A DNA stretch of 33,909 nt from Deltaproteobacteria bacterium (GTDB taxonomy: Bacteria > Desulfobacterota > Syntrophobacteria > BM002): assembly GCA_019309045.1 (NCBI GenBank), contig JAFDGZ010000058.1, positions 1-33,909 on the forward strand, written 5' to 3'. How positions within the stretch are numbered: position 1 is the first letter of the stretch; every line of letters begins with the position of its first letter. The notes beneath the pieces are model-generated. The model was not told where the DNA came from and ran no database searches. It worked only from the letters and a program-made list of their open reading frames with translations. Position numbers and translations under genes: made by a program. Below are positions 1-18,797 of the stretch, in pieces.

Positions 1-1496
1 GCTATCATTACCACAGGGAAGACCACGATCTCCGCCTTGATAATGCCGCGAATGCTGGTGCCCGTCAATTCAATCTTGCGAAACTGAACTGTTGCTTCGC
101 CGTAGTTGTGAATGGGGATAGGAGCATACCAGATCTCGATTCCCTGGTAGCCAAAAAATTTTGCCCCGGCAATGAAACTTGCCTCCCTGACAAGAGGCAG
201 ACTGACGAACTGCCCGGCGATTCCTTCCATGCGTGCAGTAATATAGGAGATGATAGGGGTGTAGATAAAACCATATGCCAGAAAGAAGAACCAGGGAAAA
301 TTGGGAACCAGCCAGACACACATAGAGGTATAGGCCAGAGTGGAGGCCACATAAATACCGATGGCGATCCAGAAATTGAAGTCGCCTCGACCAGGCGGTG
401 GTCGGAAAAGCTCGCTGAAACTGGCTCGCCGACTTTTGGCGCTGTCTCCAAATGAACGGAGTACGTGCCATATCCCTATCGCTCCTATGGCCAGCCCCAG
501 GCCAATGCCAAAGCTCATGTAGAAATCAAAATTGTTGGCAAATACTGTATCTACCGTTCCCATTCCCTTGTGCCAGCGAGTCAATATGCCATGATGGTAA
601 AGAATGGGATTGGCTATCACCGTGATAATCAGCCCGGCCAGGCCGCCCACGACAGCCCAGAATGGCAGCACCATGCCAATAAAAATCAAACCCAGATCGA
701 GCTGCAAACCAGTAGCAACCGCAGGCAGAACGCCCTCGGTATTTCGAGTGAACTCAATCCAGGGAATAGGTATGAGTCGGATCGGCTCTGTGAGAAACAG
801 AGCAGACACTGCCGGCAGCAACACATATATCGACCCGAACACCATGCCGATAACACCGCCGATGCTGAAGACTCGCCACTTCCAGCTCTTCTGTTTGTCC
901 TCGGTGGACTCTGCCAAGGCCATGGTCCCCAGCGCGCCGACTGGAGCCATGGGAAAGGGAAGTTTCTCCACGTCTGAGGTAATGCGATAGAGTGCATAGC
1001 CAAGACCAAAATGATCGATCCGCTGAATGATCTGGGAGCCGATCAACAGCAGGATTGGAATCAGCCAGTCGCGGTGGAAGAAAGTCCTTTCTACCAGGGA
1101 CTCCGAACCAGGGCTGGGCGCCACCCAGTGTGGAATAAATTCGGTAACTCCCAGCATCTTGGCAGCATCTGACTGTACCAGATATTGATTCCAGAGCAGG
1201 CCTTGAAAGGGTGATGCCAGAGCAGCGCCAGCCATGTAGTAGAGCAGGAAAATTTCCTGCTGCTTCAACTCCGTGTACGAGCGCTTGGCAATTTCGGCAA
1301 AGAGAATTATTGTGACCCATCTGGCTGCCGGGCCAATGCCAGTGCCTATAACCAGTTGCAGGTACATGCTGCCGGGCATCATAAGAAACCCTATGAACAC
1401 CGCCCCCACAACTGTTTTCCAGTCGAAGCCCTCCTCGAAGTGATCCGGAGGCTTCAACAGATCACGATATTCCTGAAGTTCCTTGTCTTCATACAT
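1..1496 (-). CDS. OPT-like polytopic membrane transporter (partial, C-terminus off left edge)
   Basis: The reading frame is open from an ATG at 1496 to the window edge, giving about 498 residues. In-frame TAA and TAG codons lie just upstream of that ATG, so the start is well bounded, although no strong Shine-Dalgarno is visible. The protein is very hydrophobic, with many membrane segments separated by short loops. It carries motifs typical of proteins annotated as OPT-type peptide transporters, such as GIGPAARWVTI near residue 55 and VEKLPFPMAPVGALG near residue 180. Its stop would lie left of position 1. It follows the DUF6785-type gene by 57 bp on the same strand, so the two probably share a transcript and may work together in the membrane. 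Substrate is unknown; the OPT assignment is from motif resemblance and is moderate. Confidence 0.65.
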   Translation of the reverse strand, partial: MYEDKELQEYRDLLKPPDHFEEGFDWKTVVGAVFIGFLMMPGSMYLQLVIGTGIGPAARWVTIILFAEIAKRSYTELKQQEIFLLYYMAGAALASPFQGLLWNQYLVQSDAAKMLGVTEFIPHWVAPSPGSESLVERTFFHRDWLIPILLLIGSQIIQRIDHFGLGYALYRITSDVEKLPFPMAPVGALGTMALAESTEDKQKSWKWRVFSIGGVIGMVFGSIYVLLPAVSALFLTEPIRLIPIPWIEFTRNTEGVLPAVATGLQLDLGLIFIGMVLPFWAVVGGLAGLIITVIANPILYHHGILTRWHKGMGTVDTVFANNFDFYMSFGIGLGLAIGAIGIWHVLRSFGDSAKSRRASFSELFRPPPGRGDFNFWIAIGIYVASTLAYTSMCVWLVPNFPWFFFLAYGFIYTPIISYITARMEGIAGQFVSLPLVREASFIAGAKFFGYQGIEIWYAPIPIHNYGEATVQFRKIELTGTSIRGIIKAEIVVFPVVMI

Positions 1497-1552: not shown

Positions 1553-3526
1553 TCAGGTAGGCAGCACGTGATAACTGCTGCTAGTGAACAGCCCCACTAT
1601 TCCCCAGAGTCCACCCATGAGAAAATCGCCAAGGATGAGGCCAACGAAAAAGAGGCGCACCTTTTTGAACAGGGCCACACCACCATATCTGAGGCTCAAG
1701 TGATTGCAAAGCCAGCCTACCAGAAAGCTGAACCAGATAATTTTCATGGCTGAACTGTAGGTGGTGAGATAGCCTAGCGGATGAATCGGCCACCAGTAGA
1801 AGCGCTGATAGCCCGTGACGAGCACAAGCATCACCAGAGCGCCAATCACGGAAAAGATGAACACCCACTTGCGAGGTCCCTCTGGAGCCTCCAGCAGCCG
1901 CTGCACATTTTCATATACTGACAGGGTCGTTCTAGTAGCCCACTCCAGGTGTAGCTCCCGAATCCCGTACTTGTAGCAAAGCGTCAGCATGGCCACGAAA
2001 GAGACCACCACTCCAGCAACGATCACAACCAGGATGCCTGCGAATATGAGTTTTCTATTCCTGCTGCCCTCTCCCACCTTGGCTCCATGCACCAGAGAGG
2101 GCATCAACGACTCCCGCATGTCTACGAAGAGAACCTTTTGCATTACGGCAGCCATGAGCAGTCCCACGTTCGTAAAGAAACGAGAGCCCCAGAAAGCCAA
2201 CATGCCGTCAGTGGGAGCTGCGCTCAGAGTAAAATAGGCAATACCTCCCTGACAGATAATCCTGCTGGCAACCAGGAGGATCATCAGGAAAACTCCCACC
2301 AGGATGAGAGTAACTTCGAGCGGCATGCCATACCGCACGCACCAGGCTATCAAAGCGATAGCCCCAAGAACAAAGCCCCAGAAGGACAAGCGCATGGAGA
2401 ACCACTCTACCCCAGAAGCTCGACGCGGGGCAGTGCTGAAGCTCTGCTTCAAGATATCCAGCAGGTGGTAGCGGGCCAGCCACAGCATAAAGAGAAAGAA
2501 GATCAGGTAAGCGCCGATCATCTGGGTCTCTTCAGGTCTCGACAGAGTGGGGCCAAAGGTGATGCCAAGAGCTGCCGCCGGGATGTTGTACCCCAGAACA
2601 CTCAGCAGTCCGAAAAGCAAGCCGCCAAGGAGAAAGAAGAACCAGAAACTGAAGGAAATCTGCCGAGGCGTCAAGAAAGCAAACCCAATAAAAGCGGGAT
2701 ATATAAAGATCTTCAGCTTGTGAAAGCCGGAAAAGATGCCGTACTTTGGAAAATATGGGCCTGCCAGAATCAGGGTGGGGATCTGGGGTATTGTGGGGAT
2801 ATAGAAATGCAGGCCATTGATCAAGTGAAGAAACACCGTGGCCAGAAGTCCGATGAGCAGAAACTTGTTTGCCAGAAATCCAAAAAATCTGTGGCCGCTG
2901 TATGCTTCCTCCATCAGCTGCGGCACTCGTAGCAAGGGAAAATTCATTCTTTCGTTTTCGATCCACTGGTGACTGAACAGGTTCACCATGCACATCATTA
3001 CCCAGTAGCAAAGCAGAACGAAGCCCGTCCACACCAGCAGCGGCGGCAGCCAACACTTCCATGGGATCTGCGCCAGTACCTGCAGCCATCCCAGCTGATG
3101 GCCACCTTCCAGACCTCGGTAGAGAGTCTCTATCGCCCGGGGATCCTTGGGATACCAGCCTGGCGGCAACAAGGGTTGCAGGACTTGCTGCCAGCGGTTC
3201 CCCACAGTGGCAAAGTGAATTGGAGCAGTAAGATTGATGAAAAATGTCCGCACAAGACCAGTGTAGGCAATCCCGGAGACCAGCACCATAAGTATCCAGA
3301 TCACCAGCAGCTCTCGCCCTGTGAGCCAGTAGGATGACCTGATACGCCCCAGAGCAGCAACACCTACAGAAATCCAGAAATAGAGAAAAAAAGGCGCCAG
3401 GGGGAAGTGGCCGCCTCCCAGGGGTGTGGCTCCCCTGTAGACATTGTTGAACGGTGTAATCGCAGCAATCAAAGTGGCCAGAATTACACCAATCAGCACC
3501 GCACGGAGTCTCACCGGCCCCTGCAT
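1553..3526 (-). CDS. DUF6785/DUF6784-type polytopic membrane protein (OPT-like)
   Basis: This 657-residue integral membrane protein has about 14-16 hydrophobic segments. The loop WIENERMNFPLLRVP (residues 188-202) and the C-terminal block WWPIHPLGYLTT (578-589) followed by LRYGG and a glycine-rich last helix are what I associate with the DUF6785 and DUF6784 domains, which are related to oligopeptide (OPT) transporters. The substrate is not known. The start at 3526 has an AGGAG about 10 nt upstream. It lies 106 bp downstream of the giant permease gene and 57 bp upstream of a second OPT-like gene, on the same strand, so a transport role linked to the ABC system is inferred. No truncation or frameshift is seen. 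Confidence 0.75.
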   Translation of the reverse strand: MQGPVRLRAVLIGVILATLIAAITPFNNVYRGATPLGGGHFPLAPFFLYFWISVGVAALGRIRSSYWLTGRELLVIWILMVLVSGIAYTGLVRTFFINLTAPIHFATVGNRWQQVLQPLLPPGWYPKDPRAIETLYRGLEGGHQLGWLQVLAQIPWKCWLPPLLVWTGFVLLCYWVMMCMVNLFSHQWIENERMNFPLLRVPQLMEEAYSGHRFFGFLANKFLLIGLLATVFLHLINGLHFYIPTIPQIPTLILAGPYFPKYGIFSGFHKLKIFIYPAFIGFAFLTPRQISFSFWFFFLLGGLLFGLLSVLGYNIPAAALGITFGPTLSRPEETQMIGAYLIFFLFMLWLARYHLLDILKQSFSTAPRRASGVEWFSMRLSFWGFVLGAIALIAWCVRYGMPLEVTLILVGVFLMILLVASRIICQGGIAYFTLSAAPTDGMLAFWGSRFFTNVGLLMAAVMQKVLFVDMRESLMPSLVHGAKVGEGSRNRKLIFAGILVVIVAGVVVSFVAMLTLCYKYGIRELHLEWATRTTLSVYENVQRLLEAPEGPRKWVFIFSVIGALVMLVLVTGYQRFYWWPIHPLGYLTTYSSAMKIIWFSFLVGWLCNHLSLRYGGVALFKKVRLFFVGLILGDFLMGGLWGIVGLFTSSSYHVLPT

Positions 3527-3632: not shown

Positions 3633-6600
3633 TCATCCTTGCATCCCCTTCGCCTCAGTAGTCACGTGTACCAACAGAATTTTCTCGTATTGAGGTTTTT
3701 CCTCAGCCCCCAGTGAACGCCAAATGAGAAGTTGCTTGCGCAGATCGTCAAGAAAGCCCTTGTTCAAACGTTTCCAGGTAGTAGCCTCTCCAGCCTCTCG
3801 CACGAGTTTGACCTTGATCACCAGATACCGGGGATCCTCTGCGGCTGGATGAAAGCTGATGTCAGCATTCTGCTTGACACCGAAATCGAAAGGCGCCAGC
3901 CAAACTCTCGCATTTACCCGGATATATCCCCGGGAGTCTTCAGTGGCCAGCTCTCCTCGGGTAGTAAGGTTTTTCTCAGCGTCGCCAGAGCGGCCTTCCA
4001 GCTGGCTCAGGGAAACTTTCAATTCATCAGTGGAAAACAGACCGTGGGAGACGTCTTCGTGAGCAATGTAGTACTCGCAAAGGTAGCCGCCGATGCCGAA
4101 CTGCTCCTCTTTGCGCACCAGGAATGGCAGAGTGAGGTCCAGTTCCTGACCTTTGGGCTCGGGCAGAGTCCAGGCGCGGTTCACATCAGGTATGGCAATG
4201 TCAGCCGCCATCCTGGAGGGGTAGATAACAGAAATGAGCACCACCAGCACTACCAGCACTGTGGCGGCCACTCCCGCAAGGGAAGAATAGTTAACCGTTA
4301 TGCCATGCCACAGCGAGGTGCCCACCAGCAGGCTGGCCAGGGTTTGAGCCAGCAGATAGCCGAGCACCGCGCTGAGCACTGCAAAAGCCAGGGATTCGGC
4401 CACAAAAAGAAAGGAGACATGATTCGGCGCCAGACCCACAGAAGTGTATACGGCAATCTCTCTCTTCCTCTCATACACGCTGCTAATCATGGTGTTGAGA
4501 ACGATGAGCACCGAAATCAAAATGGGAATTATAATGTTGGGCACCCCGCTGTAGCTGAACGAGTCAGAGGCATGGTACATGAACCTTCCTTTAGCCTCGC
4601 CGCTGAAAAGGGTCAGACCGAAGCGATCAACGAGAGCACGTGCTGTGGATTCAACCGTGCGGTCTGATCCCAGCTTGATAGCCACCGCCTTGAGAATGCC
4701 GCCAATGCTCTGCAGAGTCTCGTACGGCAAAATGATGGTGAGATCTGCTGGTATATGATGATACCTCCCCTGGAATGCCTTGATATCTTCACCTGATTCG
4801 ATGGCATCCATCTCTACTTCGGTGATCTGCACGGCAGCTTCACTCGGAAAGGTCACTGGAGTGACCACCTCGCCATCTAAATCCCGATGCCGTTCCAGAT
4901 CCTTTCCTCGAAAGCATCCTACCACTCGAAATGAGGTGCCCCAGAGATCAATGCTATCGCTGCCGTCCGAACCCAGTCGGATGCCCAGCTCTTGAGCCAA
5001 CAGTTCCGGCAGCACCACCACCTGCAACTCTCCCGGACGAAACCAGCGGCCCCGGCTCAGATTCCTGCCGATGCCGCTGACAACAGGTTCCCGGGGACTG
5101 AGGCCCAGCACTCCCCTGGCCACAGCTCGCCGATCACCCCGCCGGAGAGAGGCTAGAAAAGGGCTCGATCTGTCGTCACTTTCCATCCAGCCGCGCGGCA
5201 CCACATCGGCATGAGCACCAAACTCGTTGGCCATCACCTCGAAGGCTTCAGAAGGCAAAGTCTCCCAATTGAGCTCTTTCAAAAGAATGCCCCTGTAAGG
5301 CGCCCTGTCTGCCAGGCGCAGCCTTCCCCGGAGTCGAATGCTTTTCACACTGGTAAAACTCATGATGGTAAAGGTAAGGATAATCAGGGTAACACAGGTG
5401 AGCCCCGTGCGCAGCTTTCGGCGACGCAGATTGCTCACCCCCAGAACAAAGGCTGCCATGAAGGCTTTACCCTTGGTTACCTCGGAGCGTTTCAACTGAT
5501 GTGCCTGTTTCTGCAGCTGGGCCATCTCCTGTTCAAAGCGATTGAAAATAATGAGGGAAACCATTATTGACAAGCCGACAATGAGAAAGGCAAGGATCAC
5601 CACAAATGGACTGTAGGTGAGCTGAAATGCCGGGTGCACCAGATAAATCACCCCGATCACAACCGCGAGGATGCTCATAAAGGCGATGATGCGCTTGTGT
5701 ATGTTGCTATATGAAAACAGCAGTCGTTCAGCACAGTAGGCAAACGGCACGAACAACGCCACATAAAAGAGCACCCCGAACAGCACATCTCTCTGGGTGT
5801 CTTCCACACTGTTATAGACCCGCAGCGCCAGCGCCCAGGAAGCCTTGGCCTCGGCCAGAAAACGGTCGTATCGCTTCTGGGCGCGCGCTTTAGCGGCCTT
5901 CTCCAGTGCTGCAGTACCCTCGCGCTGCAGAAAGCGAATCTTCTCATTAAAAATTCCGTGATTCTCCAGATTGGCTATCCTAGGTAGAAGAAGGGTCCAC
6001 ATATCCTTGGCCACTCTATACGGAGTAGCTGGTATGGTTGGCCACTGGTCGATATTGTAGCCTCTCCCTTCAGGCTGATCCGGATCGCCATTAAGCAGGA
6101 GAAGTTTTCTCTTGAGCACTGTGTCTGAGAGGGTCAGCTTCATGGAGATTCCCCTCTCGAGAAATATGCTTTCAATAGTTGAGGAACGGGTGTCGATCCT
6201 GCTCCAAAAATATCGTCGGGGGGCAGCATCTAAACCGGCGTCGAGAAGTTTAATCTTGGTAAGGTATCGAAAGGTTCTTGGCTCCAGGAGATCGAAAAGA
6301 GTTGTCATTCGGCAGGCAAACATTACCAGGTCTGTTTCCATGTTTCTGCGACGCATCTTGACGCGATAGGCAGACTTGCCGGTTTGCCTCTTGTCAATGG
6401 CCCATATTATGTGGCCGGTGTCAGGCTCGAAGCGATAAGCTTCGAGTATTGCCTTGCCCACCACGTGCTTGCGATCCGCAAGGCCCCGAATCCTGAAGAT
6501 GCCAGCTGTATCGACCATATTGTAAAAACGGGCGTTTCCCTGGTAGGTGAGGATGACGGTTCCAGGTGCTGGCTGGTCGGGGAAGAGCTCACCCTGGCGA

Positions 6601-8519
6601 ATGAAGTTGGCCCGACCTGTAAGGGTAGCAAAACCGTTGCGCGGCTGCGTTTCTGTTACCAGTCCTGGTTCGCGACTTAAAGCGCCAATCAAGGCAGAGA
6701 CCAGTCTGCTTTGTCTGCGCACATATTCAAGATTGACCGTGGGGAGCAGGTCATATGGTGTACCCCAGCGCGACCTGCTGTCATTCAAAGTCACCAGGGT
6801 CAAGCCAACCATGCCGGCCATGGTGCTGATTTCTCCCCCCAGGGCGGGTCTGTCGCCAAAATAGCTCTGCCACGGACGAGCAATATTCGGCCGCAAGGTG
6901 TCCTTGTAGAGACCTCGGACACCGATTTTTTCTTCCACCTGCGGGGCTATCCTCCACAAGACTCCGCTGATCAGGCTGAAACTGCGGACCATGTTTACTT
7001 CGGGTCGAAGCTGGTAAAACCAGCCTTTATAGAAACCGCCAACGCCATCACCATGGCTGGACAGGTGCAGGGAAATGCATGCAGGTATTTCCTTGCCCCT
7101 GACGAATTTTCTCAAACGGTGAGCACTTCGGACGCACTGCAGCTGTTCACGGCTGTCTGTCAGAACCCTCTGATGATAGGCCACAGCTCTGGGCACGATA
7201 TTGAGCAGAAGCTGCCGTTCCTCATCGGATAGACTGTCGTAGACAGTCTGCCACTCGAGCCGCTTCAGGTTGAGGCGCCGTCTGGCCAACTCCTCGATTA
7301 CTGCTTCGTTGTAGCTGCTTCCCTTCTGCAGCCGGAGCTTCATCAGCTGCTGACTGGCGATATTGATCTCTGTCTTGATCTGCTCTGCAAGGGCCTCCTT
7401 GAGGAGCGCCGCCTCCTCCTTCTTGCTCGAGTGCAATGAATCTACCCTCTGCAACAGGGCTATATACTTGTTGGCTGTCTGCATCCTTTTCTTGAGGGCC
7501 CTTTGCATCTTTCGCAGTTCTCTGTTCTTGGCACGTATGGCCCAGATGAATTGCCTCATGCCGGCCAGACTCTGAGCGTGCCCGCTAGTGGCCACCAACA
7601 ACACAGTACGTCCCGGCGGTTCTTCCTTGAAAAATCTCGCCATGTCAAGCAGAGAGGCGATTCCCACAGCCTCGTCAGCACCTGGACCGATGCCGGCCAC
7701 CAGGGAAGTGCTGTCGTAGAATGCTTCTACCACCAGAAGTTCATCACGGAGTTCAGGATCATTGCCGGGAATCAAGGCATAGATATTTTCAGCGGCTACA
7801 CGCTGCCAGCCCCCCCGACAGCTCAAGCGTATCAGAGGAGAAACCATCCTTTTCCTGGTCTTTGCAAAGGCGCCAAACAGTTCGCTGGCCTTGTCAGCAG
7901 GCACCCAGAAGCGGGGAAATTCTATCGGCGTCAACTCGAATTTGTCATAATAAAGGCCGTTGAGCCCCAGGCCCCGGTCAAGATAGACGACTGCCGCAGC
8001 TCCCAGCATGGCAGCATTGATCCAGTTCTTGCCTGAGTCGAGCTCCATGAGCACAATGCTGCCCTTTACTTCAAAACCATTGAAGTCCTCGAGCTCGCCA
8101 GTACCCACATAAATAAGCGGCCCCTGCAATCCTGAGATTGGGGTGGTTTGCGGGCTGACAGCATTCAGTTCCACTGGATGGATGATCAGGCTCTGTTCGG
8201 TCCCTGGCAAGCTAAGCCTTGCCTGCTGGTACAGGGTCACCGGCAGGAGAAAGCGCTGCCGCTGCACCTTTTCGATGCCCAGCCTCTTAAAGGCCTCGCT
8301 GATCAAATCCGCGGCCTGGCGACACCCTTCAGTGCCGGTGCTCCTGTCCTTGAGAGCGGCAAACTGGCGCACGATATCGCCAATACCTGCTGCCTGCACT
8401 GCTCCTTTAGAAACAATACAAAGGATCATTGCCAACAGCAGAATGGCTTTTGTGCCAGACACACTGAGCCTGGCTATAGTTGCTCTCATCTTGTGACATT
8501 TTCTAGCTGTTGCGCTCAT
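3633..8519 (-). CDS. Giant FtsX/MacB-type ABC permease with N-terminal degenerate M28 peptidase-like domain
   Basis: The 1628-residue protein has these parts in order: signal/anchor segment (about 24-43); M28-peptidase-like domain with a PA-type insert (about 45-330, insert near 150-190); coiled coil (330-400); extracytoplasmic region with a carboxypeptidase-regulatory-like beta fold (about 627-700); membrane segments near 912-935, 943-962 and 970-992; FtsX-type helix near 1035-1057; periplasmic MacB-like domain; three FtsX helices (1328-1345, about 1368-1400, 1415-1433); and a cytosolic tail of about 170 residues without a recognised family. Key M28 residues are lost: the first metal His is Phe267 and the Glu-Glu pair is His314-Ala315, so peptidase activity is unlikely. 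It lies 62 bp after the ATPase gene. The start is uncertain: the ATG at 8519 lacks a clear Shine-Dalgarno and another ATG follows at 8489. It is probably the large half of an envelope ABC machine. Confidence 0.85.
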   Translation of the reverse strand: MSATARKCHKMRATIARLSVSGTKAILLLAMILCIVSKGAVQAAGIGDIVRQFAALKDRSTGTEGCRQAADLISEAFKRLGIEKVQRQRFLLPVTLYQQARLSLPGTEQSLIIHPVELNAVSPQTTPISGLQGPLIYVGTGELEDFNGFEVKGSIVLMELDSGKNWINAAMLGAAAVVYLDRGLGLNGLYYDKFELTPIEFPRFWVPADKASELFGAFAKTRKRMVSPLIRLSCRGGWQRVAAENIYALIPGNDPELRDELLVVEAFYDSTSLVAGIGPGADEAVGIASLLDMARFFKEEPPGRTVLLVATSGHAQSLAGMRQFIWAIRAKNRELRKMQRALKKRMQTANKYIALLQRVDSLHSSKKEEAALLKEALAEQIKTEINIASQQLMKLRLQKGSSYNEAVIEELARRRLNLKRLEWQTVYDSLSDEERQLLLNIVPRAVAYHQRVLTDSREQLQCVRSAHRLRKFVRGKEIPACISLHLSSHGDGVGGFYKGWFYQLRPEVNMVRSFSLISGVLWRIAPQVEEKIGVRGLYKDTLRPNIARPWQSYFGDRPALGGEISTMAGMVGLTLVTLNDSRSRWGTPYDLLPTVNLEYVRRQSRLVSALIGALSREPGLVTETQPRNGFATLTGRANFIRQGELFPDQPAPGTVILTYQGNARFYNMVDTAGIFRIRGLADRKHVVGKAILEAYRFEPDTGHIIWAIDKRQTGKSAYRVKMRRRNMETDLVMFACRMTTLFDLLEPRTFRYLTKIKLLDAGLDAAPRRYFWSRIDTRSSTIESIFLERGISMKLTLSDTVLKRKLLLLNGDPDQPEGRGYNIDQWPTIPATPYRVAKDMWTLLLPRIANLENHGIFNEKIRFLQREGTAALEKAAKARAQKRYDRFLAEAKASWALALRVYNSVEDTQRDVLFGVLFYVALFVPFAYCAERLLFSYSNIHKRIIAFMSILAVVIGVIYLVHPAFQLTYSPFVVILAFLIVGLSIMVSLIIFNRFEQEMAQLQKQAHQLKRSEVTKGKAFMAAFVLGVSNLRRRKLRTGLTCVTLIILTFTIMSFTSVKSIRLRGRLRLADRAPYRGILLKELNWETLPSEAFEVMANEFGAHADVVPRGWMESDDRSSPFLASLRRGDRRAVARGVLGLSPREPVVSGIGRNLSRGRWFRPGELQVVVLPELLAQELGIRLGSDGSDSIDLWGTSFRVVGCFRGKDLERHRDLDGEVVTPVTFPSEAAVQITEVEMDAIESGEDIKAFQGRYHHIPADLTIILPYETLQSIGGILKAVAIKLGSDRTVESTARALVDRFGLTLFSGEAKGRFMYHASDSFSYSGVPNIIIPILISVLIVLNTMISSVYERKREIAVYTSVGLAPNHVSFLFVAESLAFAVLSAVLGYLLAQTLASLLVGTSLWHGITVNYSSLAGVAATVLVVLVVLISVIYPSRMAADIAIPDVNRAWTLPEPKGQELDLTLPFLVRKEEQFGIGGYLCEYYIAHEDVSHGLFSTDELKVSLSQLEGRSGDAEKNLTTRGELATEDSRGYIRVNARVWLAPFDFGVKQNADISFHPAAEDPRYLVIKVKLVREAGEATTWKRLNKGFLDDLRKQLLIWRSLGAEEKPQYEKILLVHVTTEAKGMQG

Positions 8520-8581: not shown

Positions 8582-9319
8582 TCAGGTGCGAGCGGCAATT
8601 TCTCCCACAGAAATCGACAGCTGCTCTCTGTCTTCTACCTTGTCAACAAGACCATCCCGTATCCAGACAACGCGATCTGAGACGCTCAACATCTTGAAGT
8701 CGTGGGTGGCAGAAATTATTGTCACTCCACGCTCTTCACTCAGCCTCCTTAGAAGTTCGATTATTTCTTCACCAGTGGTGAGATCAAGGTTACCGGTGGG
8801 TTCATCTGCCAGAATTATTGCTGGATCATTGGCCATGGCGCGGGCCACCGCAACTCTCTGTTGTTGACCGCCTGACAGTTCCGAAGGTTTATGCTGGAAA
8901 CGCTCGCCCAGACCAACCACCTCCAGAAGTTCAAGGCCCTTCTCCACAGCAGCGTCATTGTGCATGCCCGCAAAGACCATGGGCAGAGTCACATTCTCCA
9001 ACGCTGTCATTACCTGAATTAAATTGAAGGTCTGAAAAATATAGCCTATTTTGCGGCAGCGCAGCCAGGCGAGTTCATAGGCATCCAGCTGCGCTATATC
9101 CACCTCGTCAATAAAGACCTTACCCGAGGTTGGCTTGTCGAGGCCGCCAATCATATTGAACAAGGTGCTTTTACCCGAGCCGGAGGGGCCCATAATGGAA
9201 ACGTACTCACCGGCCCGTATCTCCAGGTTGATGCCTTTCAGAGCCTCCACCTTGTGTTTCCCCAATTGGAAGGTCTTTATTACTTTCAGGACACGGACGA
9301 TGTGATGTTCCTCTTTCAT
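8582..9319 (-). CDS. ABC transporter ATP-binding protein, LolD/MacB family
   Basis: This is a complete 245-residue nucleotide-binding subunit. Walker A GPSGSGKS is at 44-51, the Q-loop glutamine at about 96, signature LSGGQQQ at 148-154, Walker B IILADEP at 168-174 and the switch His in ATHD near 206. The DEPTGNLD string is typical of LolD/MacB/FtsE-type ATPases, which power FtsX-fold permeases rather than classical importers. A GAGG Shine-Dalgarno sits a few bases before the ATG. It is flanked on the same strand by a small FtsX permease (82 bp upstream) and the giant permease (62 bp downstream), so it most likely energises a heterodimer of these two. The cargo (lipoprotein, lipid or peptide) cannot be told from sequence. 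Confidence 0.95.
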
Positions 9320-9401: not shown

Positions 9402-10088
9402 CTAGTGTTCTGCCCGCATTGCCTCCACCGGCTCCATCCTGGCCGCTACTATGGCCGGATAGAGAACCCCCAGAAGACTGAGGCCACAGCCTACGCCAAT
9501 GGACAGGAGAAAGGACTCTCCTACAGCCGCCCACGGAATGAACTTCCAGACTGCAGCACCAAAACGTACCAGGCCAGTACCGAGGGCAAAGGCCCCTCCC
9601 AACAACGACCCGGCTGTGGCCCCAACGAACCCCTGCATGCCAGCCTCCAGCAAAAAGAGGCGCAGGACAAAGCTGTCCAGGGCCCCCAGACACTTGATAG
9701 TGCCTATCTCCCGAAAACGTTCGGTCACCGCCATGAGTTGGGCATTGATGATACCCACAGCACACACGAGCAGCGACAGGAAGACGATCCATCTCTGCTT
9801 GGCACTGCTGCCCACCGAGGTGGTTCCTGGGGTCACGTCAAAGCCGGCCTGGATCAGTGCCCTGTACATGGCAGGATCATCGCTGGCCAGAGCGCCGTTG
9901 GCCACATCAGTTCCTACCCTTACATAGCTGAAAAACAACACCGCCAGCACCAGGCTCATGGTAGTAATGAGCGATCTGAAAAAGCGCACTCGCAGGCTTT
10001 TCAGGCTTATTTCTACAGATTTTCTGAATGGCAGCACCACCTGTCTGTCAACAGAACTGGGGGCACCTGCAGACGATCCTGAAGACAT
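9402..10088 (-). CDS. Short FtsX-type ABC permease
   Basis: The 228-residue protein has one N-terminal membrane helix (about 38-58), a very short extracytoplasmic stretch of roughly 40 residues, and a C-terminal FtsX block with three helices. It contains the conserved loop ERFREIGTIKCLGA, which in this family contacts the ATPase, and ends in the usual ARMEPVEAMRAE-type tail. Family members normally carry a periplasmic domain of about 200 residues, so this is a minimal permease. It is the first gene of the transport group, 82 bp upstream of the ATPase. With the giant permease it would form an asymmetric pair; that pairing is inferred from gene order. An AGGA lies about 11 nt before the ATG. 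Confidence 0.85.
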   Translation of the reverse strand: MSSGSSAGAPSSVDRQVVLPFRKSVEISLKSLRVRFFRSLITTMSLVLAVLFFSYVRVGTDVANGALASDDPAMYRALIQAGFDVTPGTTSVGSSAKQRWIVFLSLLVCAVGIINAQLMAVTERFREIGTIKCLGALDSFVLRLFLLEAGMQGFVGATAGSLLGGAFALGTGLVRFGAAVWKFIPWAAVGESFLLSIGVGCGLSLLGVLYPAIVAARMEPVEAMRAEH

Positions 10089-10217: not shown

Positions 10218-11024
10218 TTACCTTTGCCTTTGCTTTTCCTCGCCCAGCGTCCCCAGATGAACGATTCTCACATGCTGCCACTGCTTTAAAGTTTCCAGGA
10301 GAAAATCCAGGAAGCGGAAAGCCGCCCGGTTCATCCTCTGGTGATGTATCATGAAGCCGCAGAATCCGGCCTGCATGCTGTGCCGCATTTCGCACCACAG
10401 ACCGTTCCAGCCCTCTTCGGCTGAAGTCTCTTTTCGAGTGTGCAGGTCAACTGTCACTGGCAGGTGCAGAATGTTACCCTGCCAAAGAGGCCCAGGGGAG
10501 CCGCTGGCGGATATGGCTCTATAGCCGAGGCTGCTGAGGGCGGCCAGCGTCTCCTGATCGCATCGATTCCAGGGCGGGGTGAAAATACGGTGTAACTCCT
10601 CATTGATCAGTGAGCTCAGTCGTTGGAAGCCCTTTAGCAGATCAGCTCTTTTCGCTTCTCTGGAGCGACTCGGGCCAAACTCCTGCTTTTTCCCATCTTT
10701 TTCGTGGTTGCAATGGCGCCAACCGTGTTGAATCCAGGCCCATAATCCGGAATTTCCACCACAGCTATCAGCCAATTGCTGCCAACGACTGCAAGTGAGC
10801 CAGGCAGGGACGACCGCCAGGGTGAGAGGGACCGTGTGTCCTCGAAACAGTTTGACCAGGTGAGCAAAACTGCGGCTGGGAACCCCCACATCATCTGCTC
10901 TGAAAAATACAACAATCTCTTGCTTTGCTGCAGCAAGAGATTCAGCTAAGATGCACCGCAGCTGGTCGGCCATATCTGTTAGCGGCTCCACCCAGAGGGA
11001 GGAGATTCCCGAGCTCGCGATCAC
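10218..11024 (-). CDS. Polysaccharide deacetylase-like protein (CE4/WalW-like fold)
   Basis: This 268-residue protein starts at a GTG, 2 bp after the stop of the upstream glycosyltransferase. FRADDVG (41-47) matches the Asp-Asp metal/catalytic motif of polysaccharide deacetylases, HGWRH (100-104) the His motif, and TPPWNR (149-154) the active-site Pro/Trp/Arg region. CE4 enzymes remove N- or O-acetyl groups from glycans using a divalent metal. No signal peptide is evident, which suggests a cytoplasmic precursor as substrate. Last gene of the tightly packed glycosyltransferase group, so its substrate is probably the glycan made there. An in-frame ATG at 10973 is an alternative start. Confidence 0.8.
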   Translation of the reverse strand: MIASSGISSLWVEPLTDMADQLRCILAESLAAAKQEIVVFFRADDVGVPSRSFAHLVKLFRGHTVPLTLAVVPAWLTCSRWQQLADSCGGNSGLWAWIQHGWRHCNHEKDGKKQEFGPSRSREAKRADLLKGFQRLSSLINEELHRIFTPPWNRCDQETLAALSSLGYRAISASGSPGPLWQGNILHLPVTVDLHTRKETSAEEGWNGLWCEMRHSMQAGFCGFMIHHQRMNRAAFRFLDFLLETLKQWQHVRIVHLGTLGEEKQRQR

Positions 11025-11026
11025 AA

Positions 11027-12202
11027 TTATTCTCTATCCTTTCCTGCTACCCTGTCATACCGCGATTCCAGCCAGAGAGCAGTCTCGACAGCACCATCGA
11101 TTCTAATTTCCCCGCTCCTTGTGGGGCGACCTCTGGCAAGCTTTCTGGCAACCGCTGCTGCCAGCCAGTCTACATCCAGAGTCTCTACTGCCTCCACATC
11201 GACAAGACGCGATAGCTTGTCCACCCTGAACCGCTGTTCACGGTTCTGCTCGAAAGGCCAGAGAAGCGCTGGTACTCCACAGGCAACCACGTTCATGCAA
11301 GTATTGTATCCAGCCATACTGATAGAGAGATCTGCAGCATCAAGATAAGAAAGGAATAGCCTGGTAAAACGGCGGACAGTCACATTGGTGTATGCCCTGG
11401 CCTGCAACTGTTCAAATTCCAGCTCGCTCATATAGGGCCCAGTGAACATGAACAACCACATTCTCTTTTTGCCAGTCAATTCACGGTAAACATCCAGCAC
11501 TGCATGCAGCAGCGGCGCCCCTACCCTGCCCCCGCCAATGCTGGCCACGAGCACTGTTTCCGCTGCGCCGATCCCCAGGCGCTCTCGCAGTTTGGCGCCG
11601 GCATGCTCCTCTGGTCTGGCTGTGACGAACCCGGTGTACACCACAGGGATCTGAATATGCTCAGTGCTGCGAAAGGACTCAGCCAAAGTGACTACGGCAG
11701 GGTCAGCATGAACCAGCAGTGCATCGAAGTAGGTGTTGAGTACAGCCAGCACTCGCTGCTCATAGGCTCGCTGATCTTGCTTTTCAACCAGGATGTCTCT
11801 CAGGCTGCAGACAACCCTGGTTGGTCCCAACTCTCCGGAGCGAATACCCTCGAGGATAGGCAGCAATTCGAACTTGAAGCTGTTGCGCCCGAAAGGATAC
11901 AGCTCCACTAGAAAAAGATCAGGGTTGAAGCTCCTCATGAGCGCCATTAATATCCTTTGCCTCTCTTTCTTTACCTCCTTCAGTGAGCGGCCGGCTTCAC
12001 CTGGATACACTCTGGTAAATTCCGGGTCCATTCTCAGTTCAGGCAGCTGGCAAGTGCGCACCTGCTCCGGCAGCTCGATTTCCACAACAGGGCCTCCGGT
12101 GACCAGCACCACCTGGTGCCTCCTGAAAGCCCTGGTCAACTCCACGGTGCGGAATAGATGTCCCATGCCGAGGACATGCTGGCAGTATTGCACTATTTTC
12201 AT
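11027..12202 (-). CDS. MurG-like (GT28-type) glycosyltransferase
   Basis: This protein of about 391 residues has a two-domain GT-B architecture. An N-terminal GMGHLFRT motif resembles the glycine/histidine loop of MurG-type enzymes. A central SIGGGRVGAPLL starts the second domain, and ADLSISMAGYNTCMNVVACG near residue 291 matches the sugar-nucleotide-binding region (MGGYNT/E-type). The enzyme probably transfers a sugar from a nucleotide donor. ATG 12202 overlaps the stop of the histidine phosphatase gene by one base (TGATG), a sign of translational coupling; a GTG one codon upstream (12205) is an alternative. It is distantly related to the protein at 16130-17374. Donor and acceptor are unknown. 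Confidence 0.85.
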   Translation of the reverse strand: MKIVQYCQHVLGMGHLFRTVELTRAFRRHQVVLVTGGPVVEIELPEQVRTCQLPELRMDPEFTRVYPGEAGRSLKEVKKERQRILMALMRSFNPDLFLVELYPFGRNSFKFELLPILEGIRSGELGPTRVVCSLRDILVEKQDQRAYEQRVLAVLNTYFDALLVHADPAVVTLAESFRSTEHIQIPVVYTGFVTARPEEHAGAKLRERLGIGAAETVLVASIGGGRVGAPLLHAVLDVYRELTGKKRMWLFMFTGPYMSELEFEQLQARAYTNVTVRRFTRLFLSYLDAADLSISMAGYNTCMNVVACGVPALLWPFEQNREQRFRVDKLSRLVDVEAVETLDVDWLAAAVARKLARGRPTRSGEIRIDGAVETALWLESRYDRVAGKDRE

Positions 12203-12810
12203 CACTCTATGGGCTCATTCAGGCGCGCAACAGCAATATCAGCAGCATTGCAGGAAAGACGATGCAGCCGGTGCGGCTGCAGCAGCGGCGGTTCTTCCGG
12301 CAAGAACATCCTTTGCAAGGCCCGGTAAATTAAACACTTCAGTACTCCTCCATGAGTTACCACCAACAGTCGGCCGCCCTCGAATTCACTGCACAGATCT
12401 TTCACAGCCATGCTGCTGCGGAGAAAAAGTTCTTCTCTGCTTTCACCCCCTGGAGGCCGAAACTGCCATCCGCGTCTTTGCTGTACTGCCAGTTCTTCAG
12501 GATCCAGATCAACAATTCTCAGCCCCGACCAGCAGCCCCAGTCAAGCTCCCGCAAGCGCGGCTCAATAGACCAGGACAATCCTAGACTCTTGTTGAGAAG
12601 ATGGGCGGTCTGCCTGGCCCTGCCGAGGTCGCTCGACACAAGATGATTCCATTTGTGCCGGCGCAAGGCTCTCCCCCATGCCATCGCATGCAGGCGGCCC
12701 TCATAGGTGAGCATGCTGTCCTGCTGGCCCTGGATGCGCATTTCTCTGTTCCAGACGGTTTCAGCATGGCGAAGCAATACCACTTCCGTTGTCTGCTGCT
12801 CACGTCTCAC
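12202..12810 (-). CDS. Histidine phosphatase family protein (phosphoglycerate mutase-like)
   Basis: The 202-residue protein has LRHAET (13-18) with the phosphorylated His15, SDLGRARQTA (60-69) with the second Arg, catalytic Glu near 88 in the RELDWG segment, and VTHGG (151-155) with the second active-site His. The fold includes phosphoglycerate mutases, alpha-ribazole phosphatase and sugar phosphatases. It uses a GTG start that overlaps the stop of the upstream GT4 gene by 4 bp, and its own stop overlaps the next glycosyltransferase start. Being locked between glycosyltransferase genes suggests dephosphorylation of a sugar or lipid intermediate of the same pathway, rather than cobalamin synthesis; this is inference. 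Confidence 0.9.
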   Translation of the reverse strand: MRREQQTTEVVLLRHAETVWNREMRIQGQQDSMLTYEGRLHAMAWGRALRRHKWNHLVSSDLGRARQTAHLLNKSLGLSWSIEPRLRELDWGCWSGLRIVDLDPEELAVQQRRGWQFRPPGGESREELFLRSSMAVKDLCSEFEGGRLLVVTHGGVLKCLIYRALQRMFLPEEPPLLQPHRLHRLSCNAADIAVARLNEPIE

Positions 12811-13964
12811 TGGCAGTATCCAGGCGATCTCTTTGCAGCTGCTCTCTCAGCTGTCCTAGCTGTCTCACAAATAATTTCATTTACTCGACCGTAATTCCGC
12901 AGAAGGTCGTGATGCTGTCTGACGTATTGCTGGGCGGCCTGTCCCATTTGATACCGCTGTTGCCTGTCTAGTACCAATTTTTCTGTGGCGGCAATAAGTT
13001 GTTCTGTGCTGTAGGGCTCCACCAGCAGACCGCTCACGCCATTGGCCACAACCTCAGGAACACCACCATCCGCAAAAGCTACCACTGGCAGTCCGCATGA
13101 CTGCGCTTCAAGAAAAACCATTCCCAGAGACTCCCTGATACCGGGAAAAAGGAACAGGTCACCGGCGCTATAGAATCGATACATTTCCTCTCGGGGTACC
13201 TGGCCAACAAAACGAACTCTATCCTGAAGCCAACCTTTTGCCAGGCGCTCCAGGGTTCTTTTTTCTGAACCTCGCCCGGCAATAGCCAGGTAGATGGAAT
13301 TATTCTTTTGCCGCAATTTTCCACAACAGCGAATCACCAGGCCGATTCCATCACTTTTCACCCCGGGGCGAAACATGGCGGCAGACAAGACTACCACTTC
13401 GTCAGTTATTCCCCATTCATGCCGTAGCTGCTCTCTGGCCATGGGATCAAACTGGAACCTGTCGGGCTCGAGACCGGGCACTATATAGCTCAGTTTTTCC
13501 TGGGGCAGGAGTCTCTCGAGATTCAGTAAATCTTCCTTTCTATTGGTGAATACGTGCGCAGCCGCAAGCAGGGCGTAGCGATTCAACATGAATCCTGGCC
13601 AGGTCCGCCAGTCTTTCTTTCTTTTGGTGGAATAGATTCCTTGAAATATGAGGTAGGGAATCTGCAAACGCCTGCAGCAAAAAGGCCCGATTATGTCTGG
13701 CGCCTTATAATAAGTGTGATAGCTGAACCAGAGGTCCACCTGCATTTCTCTGGCCCTTTGGCAGGAGCGCTGCAATGCCAGCATTGCTCTGGGCCACAAC
13801 CAGGGTCGCCAGTAGACCCACCTGGCACGAAATCTACTCATCACTCCAAGGCTGTGGCCACACTGCTGCAGGTAGTGGTAAAGTCCGGTGCCGATGGTGA
13901 GATCTCCTGACGGACGTGGATGAGAAAGTGGTTTAAAGGGCGCATAAAAGCCGATACGTAGCAT
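12807..13964 (-). CDS. GT4 family glycosyltransferase
   Basis: The 385-residue GT-B enzyme has the GT4 signature RESLGMVFLEAQSCGLPVVA (277-296), an EX7E motif with Glu278 and Glu286. The donor-domain start is recognisable at LSAAMFRPGVKSDG (193-206), and the C-terminal loop GGVPEVVANGVSGLLV is typical. The N-terminus FYAPFKPLSHPRPSGDLTIG is a usual acceptor-domain glycine-rich opening. It overlaps the histidine phosphatase gene by 4 bp and starts 80 bp after the next upstream GT4 gene. It probably adds a sugar (retaining mechanism in this family) to a lipid-linked or membrane-associated glycan on the cytoplasmic face. Specific sugar unknown. Confidence 0.9.
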   Translation of the reverse strand: MLRIGFYAPFKPLSHPRPSGDLTIGTGLYHYLQQCGHSLGVMSRFRARWVYWRPWLWPRAMLALQRSCQRAREMQVDLWFSYHTYYKAPDIIGPFCCRRLQIPYLIFQGIYSTKRKKDWRTWPGFMLNRYALLAAAHVFTNRKEDLLNLERLLPQEKLSYIVPGLEPDRFQFDPMAREQLRHEWGITDEVVVLSAAMFRPGVKSDGIGLVIRCCGKLRQKNNSIYLAIAGRGSEKRTLERLAKGWLQDRVRFVGQVPREEMYRFYSAGDLFLFPGIRESLGMVFLEAQSCGLPVVAFADGGVPEVVANGVSGLLVEPYSTEQLIAATEKLVLDRQQRYQMGQAAQQYVRQHHDLLRNYGRVNEIICETARTAERAAAKRSPGYCQ

Positions 13965-14044
13965 TGTCTCTCAATGGCTGCTGGGGCATGCTTACCCTAC
14001 TACCAATTTGCCGCTGTCTTCAGTAAGTGCCAAGAGCAGCGTAG

Positions 14045-15316
14045 CTAGCCAGCCATGACCTTGCCTGGTCGTCTCGGCAAACCCGCATCTGCAAACAACT
14101 CCCCCAGCTGGCCGATAAGATGTCGATTGTCGAACTGGCGCAGCACCTTGTCTCGGGCCGCCTGAATAATGCTGCTGCGCAGCTCCTGGTCCAGCAACAG
14201 CCTTTTCATTGCTGCGGCCATGGCTTCGGGTCGACCTGGCGGCACCAGCAGGCCATGGCGACCATCTTCCAGTGCTTCCGGAATGGCAGAAACCGTCGTG
14301 GCCACTACCGGTAGTCCCATGGCCATACTTTCAAGAAGCACGTTGGGAATACCATCTCTGTCACCGTTTCTGGCCACCTCGCAGCCCAGGACAAAGAGAT
14401 CAGAATTCTGGTAATGCTGCAGAACTTCCTCGTGAGGCAGCGTGCCGAGCCATTCGCTCATCCGACCAAGATGGAGCCGAGCGAGTTCCTGGAGGATCTG
14501 CTGCCTCTGTTCGCCATCCCCTATGAGGGAATAATGAAAGTCCGTCCCCCTATCTCGCAGCAGCTTCAAAGCACGGAACACTGTGGGCAGCCCTTTTTTT
14601 TCCACCAGACGCGCCACCGACAATAATCTATAGGGCGGCTCAGGTCTCCGCTGTGTAGAAACTGCGGAAAAAAGGCGCACATCAATGCCATGATAGATGC
14701 AGTGAATGGGGCCAGCTCCAGCAGCAAGTCGCTCGAGATACCTTTTATTGTATTGTGTACAGGTAACCACAAATTGCGCCAGTCTGATCTTTTCCTCGAG
14801 CTGCTCGGGAGCCGAGGTGTAAATGTCTTTGGCGTGCGCCGTAAAACTGAAGGGCAAACCAGAGAGACAGCTGCTAAACAAGGCCACCGAAGTAGGCGAA
14901 TGAGCAAAGTGAGCGTGAATATGCTGTACCCCCGAGTTGGGCAAAACCGCATGGACAAGGTAGCCTGCCTGCAGCAGATGCTTGATAGAGGCAAGCTTGT
15001 GGCTGCGCCTGTAGCGTTTCACCATGAGCCTGTACGCTTTTGCGTAGGCTGCAGGCCGCCTGCCCATCAACTGGACATTGTGGTACATCAAGCGGGCAAG
15101 GGGTGCGATGAGCGTTTCCGGCAAATAGTCCACGGGTGCTTTGATCTGGCTGACGCTCTTATGACTAAAGGCTTCTCGCGGCTGGCGCATAGAAATGATA
15201 TGCAGAGGAAACCCCATGTCTTCCAGGAGTAGAATCTCATTTGAGATAAAGGTCTCTGAGATGCGGGGGTAGCCTTTGAGCAGGAAACCAAGCACTTTTT
15301 CAGGACGACAGGTCAT
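14045..15316 (-). CDS. GT4 family glycosyltransferase (colanic-acid WcaL-like)
   Basis: This protein of about 423 residues belongs to the WcaL/exopolysaccharide type of GT4. It opens with FLLKGYPRISETFISNEI, a hallmark of that subgroup, and carries HIHAHFAHSPTSVA and the donor-site segment DGIPNVLLESMAMGLPVVAT, where Asp replaces the first Glu of the usual EX7E, as is common in this subgroup. ATG at 15316 is preferred over a TTG two codons upstream; no strong Shine-Dalgarno is seen at either. It heads the dense part of the cluster and is preceded by an 813-bp non-coding region, so a promoter is expected just upstream. It probably transfers a sugar to a growing envelope or exopolysaccharide unit. 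Confidence 0.9.
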   Translation of the reverse strand: MTCRPEKVLGFLLKGYPRISETFISNEILLLEDMGFPLHIISMRQPREAFSHKSVSQIKAPVDYLPETLIAPLARLMYHNVQLMGRRPAAYAKAYRLMVKRYRRSHKLASIKHLLQAGYLVHAVLPNSGVQHIHAHFAHSPTSVALFSSCLSGLPFSFTAHAKDIYTSAPEQLEEKIRLAQFVVTCTQYNKRYLERLAAGAGPIHCIYHGIDVRLFSAVSTQRRPEPPYRLLSVARLVEKKGLPTVFRALKLLRDRGTDFHYSLIGDGEQRQQILQELARLHLGRMSEWLGTLPHEEVLQHYQNSDLFVLGCEVARNGDRDGIPNVLLESMAMGLPVVATTVSAIPEALEDGRHGLLVPPGRPEAMAAAMKRLLLDQELRSSIIQAARDKVLRQFDNRHLIGQLGELFADAGLPRRPGKVMAG

Positions 15317-15506
15317 ATACAAACTCTAGAGATGGCTGCTGGCATGGCAACGACGGGCTCTAGGCTCTGCACTCTGGCAGGAAACAATCACCCAGTATCT
15401 TGATACGAACAGAGGAGCCAGGAGTTTTCACACTCCACCATTCATGGCCAATCATCTGCCTTGGTGTAGCTGTCTGCCGAAGGGCGCTCCCTAACGCTAA
15501 GCAGTA

Positions 15507-16129: not shown

Positions 16130-17374
16130 TCATGCACTCGCAGTCATGCTGCATGAATTCCTCTGTTGATCCCCTTCATTGTTCAGCAGGCGAAATTCGG
16201 CAAGCCGCCGCCGAATTACTTCTATGGCAGTAAAGCGGAAGTCTTCTATGGCCTGCAGGTAAGGCTCCGGCCGTTCGAGAAGAGAATGCACTTTCTGACG
16301 GAGCAAATCTGGTTCGAGCTGCCGCCACGGAATATAGTCCACCAGTTGATGCTTGTGCAGGATCTGCGCCCGTATGAGCTGCTCCCGCCTCGGTTGCTCT
16401 CGCGGCACGATGAGAGAGAGCTTTTTCTGGCTCAACAGTTCACAAACCGTATTGTAGCCGCCCATGCTTACCACCAGATCAGCAGCACCGATTATTCGCT
16501 CCATCCGTCGGTAGAAGCGATAGAAGCGGATTTGTAGACGCCTCGCCCGCCGGGCAATCTCGTTGCGCTTCTTTTTGGGCATAAAGGGTCCGGTGATAAT
16601 AACCGTCTTGTAGTAAGGAAGTTCTGCTTCATTCTCCAACATGGTCAGGTAGGTGTCCGTCAAGGCATAGCCGTCACCCCCACCTCCAGTTGTGACCACC
16701 ACCAGTTTGTCTCCTGCACCGAGTCCTTGCTCTCGCCTCACCTCCCTCAGGGTGGCTGGCTTGGTTACCGCCCGGGCAATATAGCCGGTAAACAAGGTCT
16801 TGCGGGCGATTGATTCAGGAAGCTGATATTCTCTGATAGGATCGTAATATTCTTGTTTGCCATACACCCAAATTTCCGAGTAGTATCGCTGCAAAACCTG
16901 ATAGACGCCTTTTTCTTCCCAGTCCCGCCGCGTACTTTCCGCATCGTCCATTATGTCTCTCAGGCCCAGCACTGTTCTGGTGCGGGGTTGACAGCGCTGC
17001 ATCCATTTCAGGGTGGGAATAACCTCCCTTTTAAGACCCAGGGGAGCTTTATCAACAATAAACAGGTCTGGCTGAAAGGCCTTGGCTGTGGCGGTGATAA
17101 TTGTCTGCCTGATGTTGAGAGCATGCTTGGCATCTATTTTGATGGAAAGCGGCAGGTACTCTTCATTGGTCATCTTGATCATGCCGGGAATTCTGACAAA
17201 ATCAATCTGGCTGGGAAAATCGAAACGACCCACAATAGGAGAACCCGTAAGGATGAGGATATTGACATTTGGTTCTCTCAGTTGCGTGGCTATAGCCAGA
17301 GTACGCCGGATATGGCCCAGGCCATAGGTGTCGTGAGAGTACATGAGAATATTGTAGGTGGGCCTACGGGCCAT
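16130..17374 (-). CDS. MurG-like predicted glycosyltransferase (COG4671-type)
   Basis: The 414-residue GT-B protein opens with YNILMYSHDTYGLGHIRRTL, a His-containing loop seen in predicted glycosyltransferases related to MurG. The second domain begins with VVVTTGGGGDGYAL (225-238), and SMGGYNTVCELL (303-314) matches the UDP-sugar-binding region. A basic patch PRREQ follows. It probably acts in the cytoplasm on a membrane-associated acceptor. It lies on the same strand as the acyltransferase 268 bp upstream and the GT4 genes downstream, so it likely belongs to the same envelope-glycan locus. A promoter-like pair precedes it. Donor and acceptor are unknown. Confidence 0.85.
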   Translation of the reverse strand: MARRPTYNILMYSHDTYGLGHIRRTLAIATQLREPNVNILILTGSPIVGRFDFPSQIDFVRIPGMIKMTNEEYLPLSIKIDAKHALNIRQTIITATAKAFQPDLFIVDKAPLGLKREVIPTLKWMQRCQPRTRTVLGLRDIMDDAESTRRDWEEKGVYQVLQRYYSEIWVYGKQEYYDPIREYQLPESIARKTLFTGYIARAVTKPATLREVRREQGLGAGDKLVVVTTGGGGDGYALTDTYLTMLENEAELPYYKTVIITGPFMPKKKRNEIARRARRLQIRFYRFYRRMERIIGAADLVVSMGGYNTVCELLSQKKLSLIVPREQPRREQLIRAQILHKHQLVDYIPWRQLEPDLLRQKVHSLLERPEPYLQAIEDFRFTAIEVIRRRLAEFRLLNNEGDQQRNSCSMTASA

Positions 17375-17642: not shown

Positions 17643-18602
17643 CTATGCGCCAACATGTATTTCTTTCTTCTTCCTCCTCAGCCTTCTTCTATTCCACTCT
17701 TGATACAGATGGGGATAGGTGACCTTCCACAACCTTTGATACCAGACCCATTGTGCGGGATATTGTCGAACTATCTCTTCCAGGGCATGCATCACCATCT
17801 GGGTATTTCTTTGCAGATCAGCTCTGATATCCCCAGTCTTTTGCATGGTCAGGGGACTGCCCACATGAACCCAGAGCCCATAGTCTGCCTTTCTCAAACA
17901 AAACATTGGAATGACCGGGCTCTTGCATCGCATACCCAGCAAAGCAGCAGCCGGCGTCACAGTAGTGCGCCTCCCCAAAAAGGATACCTCGACCCCATGC
18001 TTGCGTCTGCTTTGATCCATGGTGAAGGCAACAATTTCTCCTGAGCGTAGCGTTCTTCTCATCTCCTCCAGGGCATCTTTCTTGTACAGCACCCTGTTGC
18101 CAAATCTGGTTCGCAAATGATGAAGCCAGCGATCGAGCCGCTTTTGCCGCAGACTTCTGGCTATCCCTGTAAGAGACCTTTTTAGATAGCAGCCAATGAA
18201 CTGAAAGCCCATCTCCCAGTTCGCCAGGTGTGCAGAAACAATAATTGCCCCCTTGTTTCTCTGAAGGGCATCCTGCAAATTTTCTTTGCCTGTCAGGTTG
18301 AACATGGCCAGCAGGTCTTGCCGTCTGACAAACGTCGAATGCACAATTTCCAGAATAGTAATCCCCGCGTGTTTGAAAATGTCTCGACGAAGTCTGCGAA
18401 TACGGTCTTCAGGCCAGTGTGGAAAGCAGAATCGCAAGTTGGTTGTCACCAGGCGCCGGTGAGGTGAGTCCATGGCGTACAACACCATTCCCAGCAGCTT
18501 CCCCGAGTTCACGATATGCCTTCTGGGCATACGAGCAATAAAAGCGCGCAATTCTTTACCTGCCTTCTCACTCAATAATCTAGACCTCAACTGAACATGC
18601 AT
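17643..18602 (-). CDS. LpxL/HtrB-like lysophospholipid acyltransferase
   Basis: This protein of about 319 residues belongs to the LpxL/HtrB/MsbB acyltransferase family. Its catalytic HX4E motif is in SAHLANWEMGF (His125, Glu130 counting from ATG 18602), followed by the conserved block EMRRTLRSGEIVAFTMDQS and by VTPAAALLGMRCKSPVIPMF. These membrane-associated enzymes add acyl chains to lipid A precursors or related glycolipids. A GTG at 18707 in the same frame would add 35 residues; I prefer 18602 because the extension does not resemble the family. It lies upstream of a MurG-like glycosyltransferase on the same strand, suggesting an acylated glycolipid product. A small hairpin overlaps its stop codon. 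It is divergent from the muramidase gene. Confidence 0.88.
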   Translation of the reverse strand: MHVQLRSRLLSEKAGKELRAFIARMPRRHIVNSGKLLGMVLYAMDSPHRRLVTTNLRFCFPHWPEDRIRRLRRDIFKHAGITILEIVHSTFVRRQDLLAMFNLTGKENLQDALQRNKGAIIVSAHLANWEMGFQFIGCYLKRSLTGIARSLRQKRLDRWLHHLRTRFGNRVLYKKDALEEMRRTLRSGEIVAFTMDQSRRKHGVEVSFLGRRTTVTPAAALLGMRCKSPVIPMFCLRKADYGLWVHVGSPLTMQKTGDIRADLQRNTQMVMHALEEIVRQYPAQWVWYQRLWKVTYPHLYQEWNRRRLRRKKKEIHVGA

Positions 18603-18797
18603 GCGGCTGCTGTTCCACTTGCCGCAGCCACATGCCCCCTTGACTGTGCTGGCCGCCCATTTATAATGGACAACAACACTGCCGTACAGTATGGCTTGAA
18701 CCTCCACTCGGGTCCAGGAGAAAGTTCTGTTGTTCTTCCTGCCGCCGACCCGGAAATCTTTTTGGAAATATCTCTTTTATCACCCTGGATAAACTGC

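Follow-up and report, generated by a model that had tools for sequence, protein, structure and literature searches.

Metallopeptidase folds without catalysis are already known as receptors, as in transferrin receptor 1 (TfR1) and nicastrin, or as force-driven switches, as in EnvC. In TfR1 and nicastrin, the combined PA and M28 fold has no catalytic activity and works as a receptor or scaffold, and nicastrin and nicalin are dead M28-like receptors of this same architecture. These proteins are eukaryotic and stand outside ABC transporters. In the type VII ABC systems, including MacB, LolCDE, FtsEX, YbbAP-TesA, BceAB and HrtBA, periplasmic domains are set in motion by ATP cycling (PMC7668044). 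As EnvC demonstrates, the part of such a machine that does the work can be a peptidase domain without activity (PMC7668044), and in YbbAP-TesA a type VII ABC is joined to a hydrolase-fold partner (PMC12646458), TesA being an active and separate lipid hydrolase.

Here we describe a locus of Desulfobacterota in which a dead M28 fold is predicted to be fused to a type VII permease. A literature search, confined for the most part to papers readable without subscription, returned no report of an FtsX/M28 fusion or of DUF6785, nor of an ABC permease that contains a dead M28 fold.

Layout of the giant permease gene

The window, that is, the whole stretch of 33,909 nucleotides analysed, carries on its minus strand an open reading frame of 1628 amino acids (3633-8519, read 8519..3633), hereafter the giant permease. 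A plus-strand reading of the same interval was rejected because of many stops in that frame. All features of the gene are given below in window coordinates on the minus strand.

The protein begins with a hydrophobic segment, either a signal peptide or an anchor (residues 18-43, 8391..8468; hydropathy and sequence), followed by the first half of a pseudo-M28 fold with a PA domain (residues 44-327, 7539..8390). A coiled-coil-like insert, predicted as long helices in the AF2 model, occupies residues 328-471 (7107..7538), and the second half of the fold follows at residues 472-625 (6645..7106), as placed by alignments and the AF2 model. The insert is the least conserved part of the N-terminal region (mean identity 0.32), and the beta-rich and stalk region behind the fold is strongly conserved (residues 626-905, 5805..6644; AF2 and conservation). 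Three additional transmembrane (TM) helices (residues 906-1000, 5520..5804; hydropathy and AF2) lead into the transport core (4185..5462), which consists of TM1, a MacB-PCD-like periplasmic domain (about 1060-1325) and TM2-4 of the FtsX type, as delimited by Pfam, hydropathy and Foldseek. The conserved C-terminal domain (residues 1446-1628, 3636..4184) is predicted to be cytoplasmic from the AF2 model of the core region. Residues 44-905 would face the periplasm, because hydropathy places a hydrophobic segment before them and TM helices from about residue 911 behind them.

Predicted PA and M28 fold

Pfam detected Peptidase_M28 (PF04389) at residues 245-383 with 38.2 bits against a cut-off of 21.3, and PA (PF02225) at residues 132-185 with 20.6 bits, just under the cut-off of 23.9. 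The AF2 model of residues 40-905, built from 61 sequences, reached a pLDDT of 91.4 and a pTM of 0.91. When it was compared with the PDB by Foldseek, M28 aminopeptidases with a PA domain ranked first, including BSAP (6hc6, E 7e-19), the Aneurinibacillus aminopeptidase (2ek8, 1e-18) and PaAP (3e-18), followed by TfR1 (3e-17) and GCPII (3e-15); the alignments, among them those to PA-containing M28 structures, span about 600 columns. A profile search with sequence only was in agreement (2ek8 2.4e-12, YwaD 6e-11, TfR1 3e-3), and hhalign also supported the first half.

In the model, residues 44-625 thus form a PA and M28 peptidase fold of about 580 residues, with the same fold, PA domain and order of segments as BSAP/YwaD, PaAP and the Aneurinibacillus enzyme. 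The sequence-only reading had recognised an M28-like region with a PA insert, fused to a transport core and facing the periplasm. Pfam, AF2 and Foldseek agree on the fold and on the fusion, with the PA domain below its profile cut-off, and the side of the membrane is a prediction from hydropathy. The proposed length of 330 residues has to be revised, since the insert splits the fold and the second half lies beyond it.

Loss of the metal and catalytic site

An active M28 enzyme encoded in the same genome (L001) retains the motifs AHYD, MDN, GEE, NLD and YHTPxD, at which the giant permease has AFYD, ADE, GHA, SLH and WGTPxD. In the first half, hhalign aligned AFYD to AHYD and ADEA to MDNA; in the second half, with the insert taken out, the alignment support was weak. 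Of the five M28 metal ligands (H, D, E, D/E and H), only the bridging Asp remains, as D282 (7674..7676). The first metal His is F267 (7719..7721), and the catalytic Glu and the ligand Glu are replaced by H314 and A315 (7575..7580). In the NLD motif, H485 probably takes the place of the ligand Asp, an assignment made by strand position, one weak hhalign run having put D491 there. The last metal His is lost at G586, because W585-G-T-P-x-D590 stands in place of YHTPxD. Thus, four of five ligands and the catalytic Glu are gone (H267F, E314H/E315A, probably D485H, and H586G), whereas the aminopeptidases named above are active zinc enzymes with all ligands.

These losses are fixed in the family. In an alignment of 81 sequences, residue 267 was F in 73, P in 4 and A in 3; residue 315 was never E; residue 586 was G in 78, S in 2 and N in 1. 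Asp was found at residue 269 in 80/80 and at residue 282 in 78/80, and W585, P588 and D590 were invariant. Among 19 remoter members, with identities of about 35-42%, residue 267 was F, S, P, A or R, residue 586 was never H, the EE pair was absent, and D269 was retained. Neither the metal His nor the Glu pair was found in any of about 100 aligned homologues, down to about 35% identity. The replacement of the metal His by Phe267 and of the Glu pair by His314-Ala315, with survival of Asp269 and Asp282, had been read from this one sequence, exactly as it turned out, and the homologues dismiss the possibility that the substitutions are lineage noise. The dN/dS values of both M28 halves in close pairs (0.07-0.28) indicate that the dead domain is kept by selection. 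Taken from alignments, these patterns support a pseudo-M28 domain conserved for binding or structure, not for catalysis.

Transport core and its immediate partners

FtsX (PF02687) was detected at residues 1331-1439 of the giant permease with 48.8 bits, above the cut-off, and a MacB_PCD match fell below its cut-off. The AF2 model of residues 735-1628 was moderate (pLDDT 73.7); its best Foldseek match was MacB (E 4e-13), followed by LolC/LolE, HrtB and FtsX. Hydropathy indicated three TM helices at about 911-996 in addition to the four of the FtsX type. Upstream on the same strand, a gene at 8582..9319 encodes an ABC ATPase of the LolD/MacB/FtsE class by Pfam/NCBIfam-type scores, with Walker A, LSGGQ, Walker B and H-loop intact. 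It is followed, still further upstream, by a gene for a mini-FtsX permease of 228 amino acids (9405..10088, minus strand), which by Pfam and hydropathy has the C-terminal TM part of FtsX and no MacB-PCD. With an FtsX-like core of four TM helices per half, a MacB-type periplasmic domain and a cognate ATPase, the core of the giant permease is a MacB/LolCE-type (type VII) ABC permease.

The system shares the FtsX-like core, the MacB-type domain and a separate LolD/MacB-class ATPase with the type VII systems listed above, and falls outside LolCDE, MacB and FtsEX by equivalog profiles. For LolC/LolE the giant permease gave no match and mini-FtsX 45.8 bits against a cut-off of 362; for MacB the score was 16.5 bits against 966, the ATPase here being a separate gene; for FtsX it was 18-20 bits against cut-offs of at least 250. 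In contrast to the known systems, the giant permease adds three TM helices and a periplasmic N-terminal region of about 860 residues with the dead M28/PA fold, its partner permease is almost without a periplasmic domain, and two constant polytopic partners are present. In mini-FtsX, only about 40 residues lie between TM1 and TM2, and therefore the periplasmic side would come from one half only. We infer that the giant permease, mini-FtsX and the ATPase form one complex.

Gene neighbourhood and co-occurrence

Around 90 homologous loci were compared for neighbours on the same strand. The ATPase was found in 79/80 and mini-FtsX in 72/75 loci with room for them. Two polytopic membrane proteins are encoded on the other side of the giant permease, both on the minus strand: a DUF6785/DUF6784 protein (1553..3526; Pfam), a constant partner found in 66/71 loci, and a member of a 653-amino-acid (653-aa) family (3..1496), cut by the contig end to 498 amino acids here and found in 55/60 loci. 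The 653-aa family is 72-91% identical across Desulfobacterota, far above its partners, and matched no Pfam family. A GT28-like gene was present in 41/57 loci with room. The conserved cassette comprises two GT28-like and two GT4 glycosyltransferases, a histidine phosphatase and a DUF2334 deacetylase-like protein; in the window, Pfam and neighbour analysis place DUF2334, GT28-like, histidine phosphatase, GT4 and GT4 genes at 10218..15322, and a further GT28-like gene at 16130..17374, all on the minus strand. Distant genomes repeat the order GT28-GT4-GT4-phosphatase-GT28-DUF2334-miniFtsX-ATPase-giant.

Several assignments of the polytopic proteins were tried. A GT-C/STT3 identity of the 653-aa protein was rejected (NCBIfam E 0.01 only, and nothing by hhalign), and an OPT identity serves as a lead only: PF03169 gave 7.9e-4 in one member (G016), below the cut-off, and the hhalign match (E 0.018) had a very low probability. 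No homology between the DUF6785 and 653-aa families was detected by comparisons including hhalign, and profile searches of the PDB with both families gave no match. In plasmids, the search for relatives of the giant permease returned only one ordinary M28 enzyme, and that for DUF6785 returned no match.

Other genes accompany the locus. A gene for an LpxL-like lipid A acyltransferase (17643-18707, minus strand) adjoins the glycosyltransferase cassette and is not at that place in 20 relatives. A divergent gene, which as mechanically called shares about 110 bp with the start of the LpxL-like gene, encodes a NamZ-type exo-beta-N-acetylmuramidase (18597-19973, plus strand). In many relatives (L044 11036-12953 and similar loci), the 3' side of the 653-aa gene carries genes for an exported protein of roughly 206 amino acids, a 295-amino-acid protein without family and a PqqD-like protein.

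The 80 named relatives (the best 80 of 196) belong to Desulfobacterota, with Desulfobacterales, Desulfobulbales and Desulfovibrionales among the orders, or are deltaproteobacterial MAGs. Across 395 sampled Desulfobacterota genomes, the giant permease, the 653-aa protein and DUF6785 were each found in 28, an identical set, these positives belonging to 20 genera and not being phylogenetically independent. Presence and absence were joint even within families: f20 contains G141 with all three and G069 without any, and f6 contains G024, which has none of the three. In four genomes (G018, G016, G301 and G340), both polytopic genes lie off the giant gene, on another contig or more than 10 kb away, in single copy; the partner genes of G340, G301 and G016 are on different contigs. 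Because these single-copy partners persist away from the giant gene, the co-occurrence does not come from linkage alone. A genome search with the GT28-like protein of 16130-17374 found it in all 28 genomes (28/28, E at most 5e-93), often unlinked or far from the giant gene; outside the 28, only weaker matches of 36-40% were found, in five other genomes.

Discussion

The locus may represent an asymmetric type VII ABC machine of Desulfobacterota, with a fixed dead-M28 receptor or transmission arm and a glycolipid or lipid-linked glycan as client, a reading whose chances we consider evenly balanced. The giant permease would carry all the large periplasmic parts, namely the MacB-type domain and the 580-residue PA and M28 fold, and binding and release of ATP would move this arm by mechanotransmission. 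The dead domain could act as a receptor or as a transmission arm, binding through a remodelled conserved pocket (D269, D282, W585, D590) or through the domain surface, in a role like that of the dead M23 domain of EnvC for FtsEX. The client would be produced by the associated glycosyltransferase cassette, and the machine might pull it from the inner membrane or pass it to the two polytopic partners. It may export, or it may transmit force as FtsEX does. The nature of the substrate is suggested by gene neighbours and co-occurrence: since the two polytopic proteins and GT28 always co-occur with the giant permease in the sampled genomes, handling of a glycolipid or glycan is probable rather than of peptides. 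The broader proposal, a new envelope-building machine in which the type VII ABC, the dead PA-M28 arm, two obligate polytopic proteins and a dedicated GT28 make and move a novel outer-surface glycolipid or glycan, is tentative and falls a little short of an even chance.

An unlikely alternative is a regulator without transport, in which ATP cycling would move the dead peptidase domain to recruit or activate a separate periplasmic enzyme such as a hydrolase, ligase or glycan polymerase. Type VII includes the non-transporting FtsEX, and EnvC has a dead M23 domain on a coiled coil (PMC7668044). The likeness extends to a periplasmic dead metallopeptidase domain with helical elements, driven by a type VII ABC in EnvC (PMC7668044) and proposedly so here. 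The dead M28 domain likewise bears a helical insert, and the ATPase scores near FtsE as well as LolD. EnvC differs, however, in being of M23 rather than M28 type and a separate protein rather than a fused domain, and nothing here points to amidase clients. No need of FtsEX for further polytopic partners or for a glycosyltransferase set is known, whereas both always accompany the giant permease, and no conserved gene for a soluble periplasmic enzyme was seen in the cassette. YbbAP-TesA also joins a type VII ABC to a hydrolase fold, but here the fold belongs to a dead peptidase and forms part of the permease.

Recognition of peptides or lipoproteins for export, as the sequence-only reading proposed, appears improbable. 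In its favour, peptide-cutting enzymes have this fold and the pocket is still conserved, the related LolCDE moves lipoproteins, and the weak OPT-like signals of the 653-aa protein would suit oligopeptides. However, the metal site and the Glu pair of an aminopeptidase are lost, and nothing at the locus points in that direction: in the cassette, no gene for peptide biosynthesis or of LolA/LolB type was seen, and the neighbours are glycan and lipid enzymes. Still more doubtful is a structural scaffold without a ligand pocket, serving dimerisation, spanning of the periplasm or docking of an outer-membrane partner. TfR1, which resembles the giant permease in sequence profile and fold and uses a PA and M28 fold without a working site as a receptor, is among the PDB matches; yet D269, W585, T587, P588 and D590 at the former metal site are nearly invariant, a degree of conservation beyond what a bare scaffold would seem to require. 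A rebuilt active site, with H314, H485, H489, D282 and E563 forming a new hydrolase or metal site, is very improbable, for although four of these residues are frequent in the main subfamily (H314 62/80, H485 75/81, H489 76/81, E563 81/81), the distant subfamily, which has the same partners, carries N, S, Y or D instead of H314 and H485, and this argues against a new active site common to the whole family.

The co-occurrence gives DUF6785/6784 and the 653-aa family, both without assigned function, a testable context. The strict co-occurrence of the permease, DUF6785/6784, the 653-aa protein and GT28 suggests that sulfate-reducing bacteria have an envelope pathway not yet studied.
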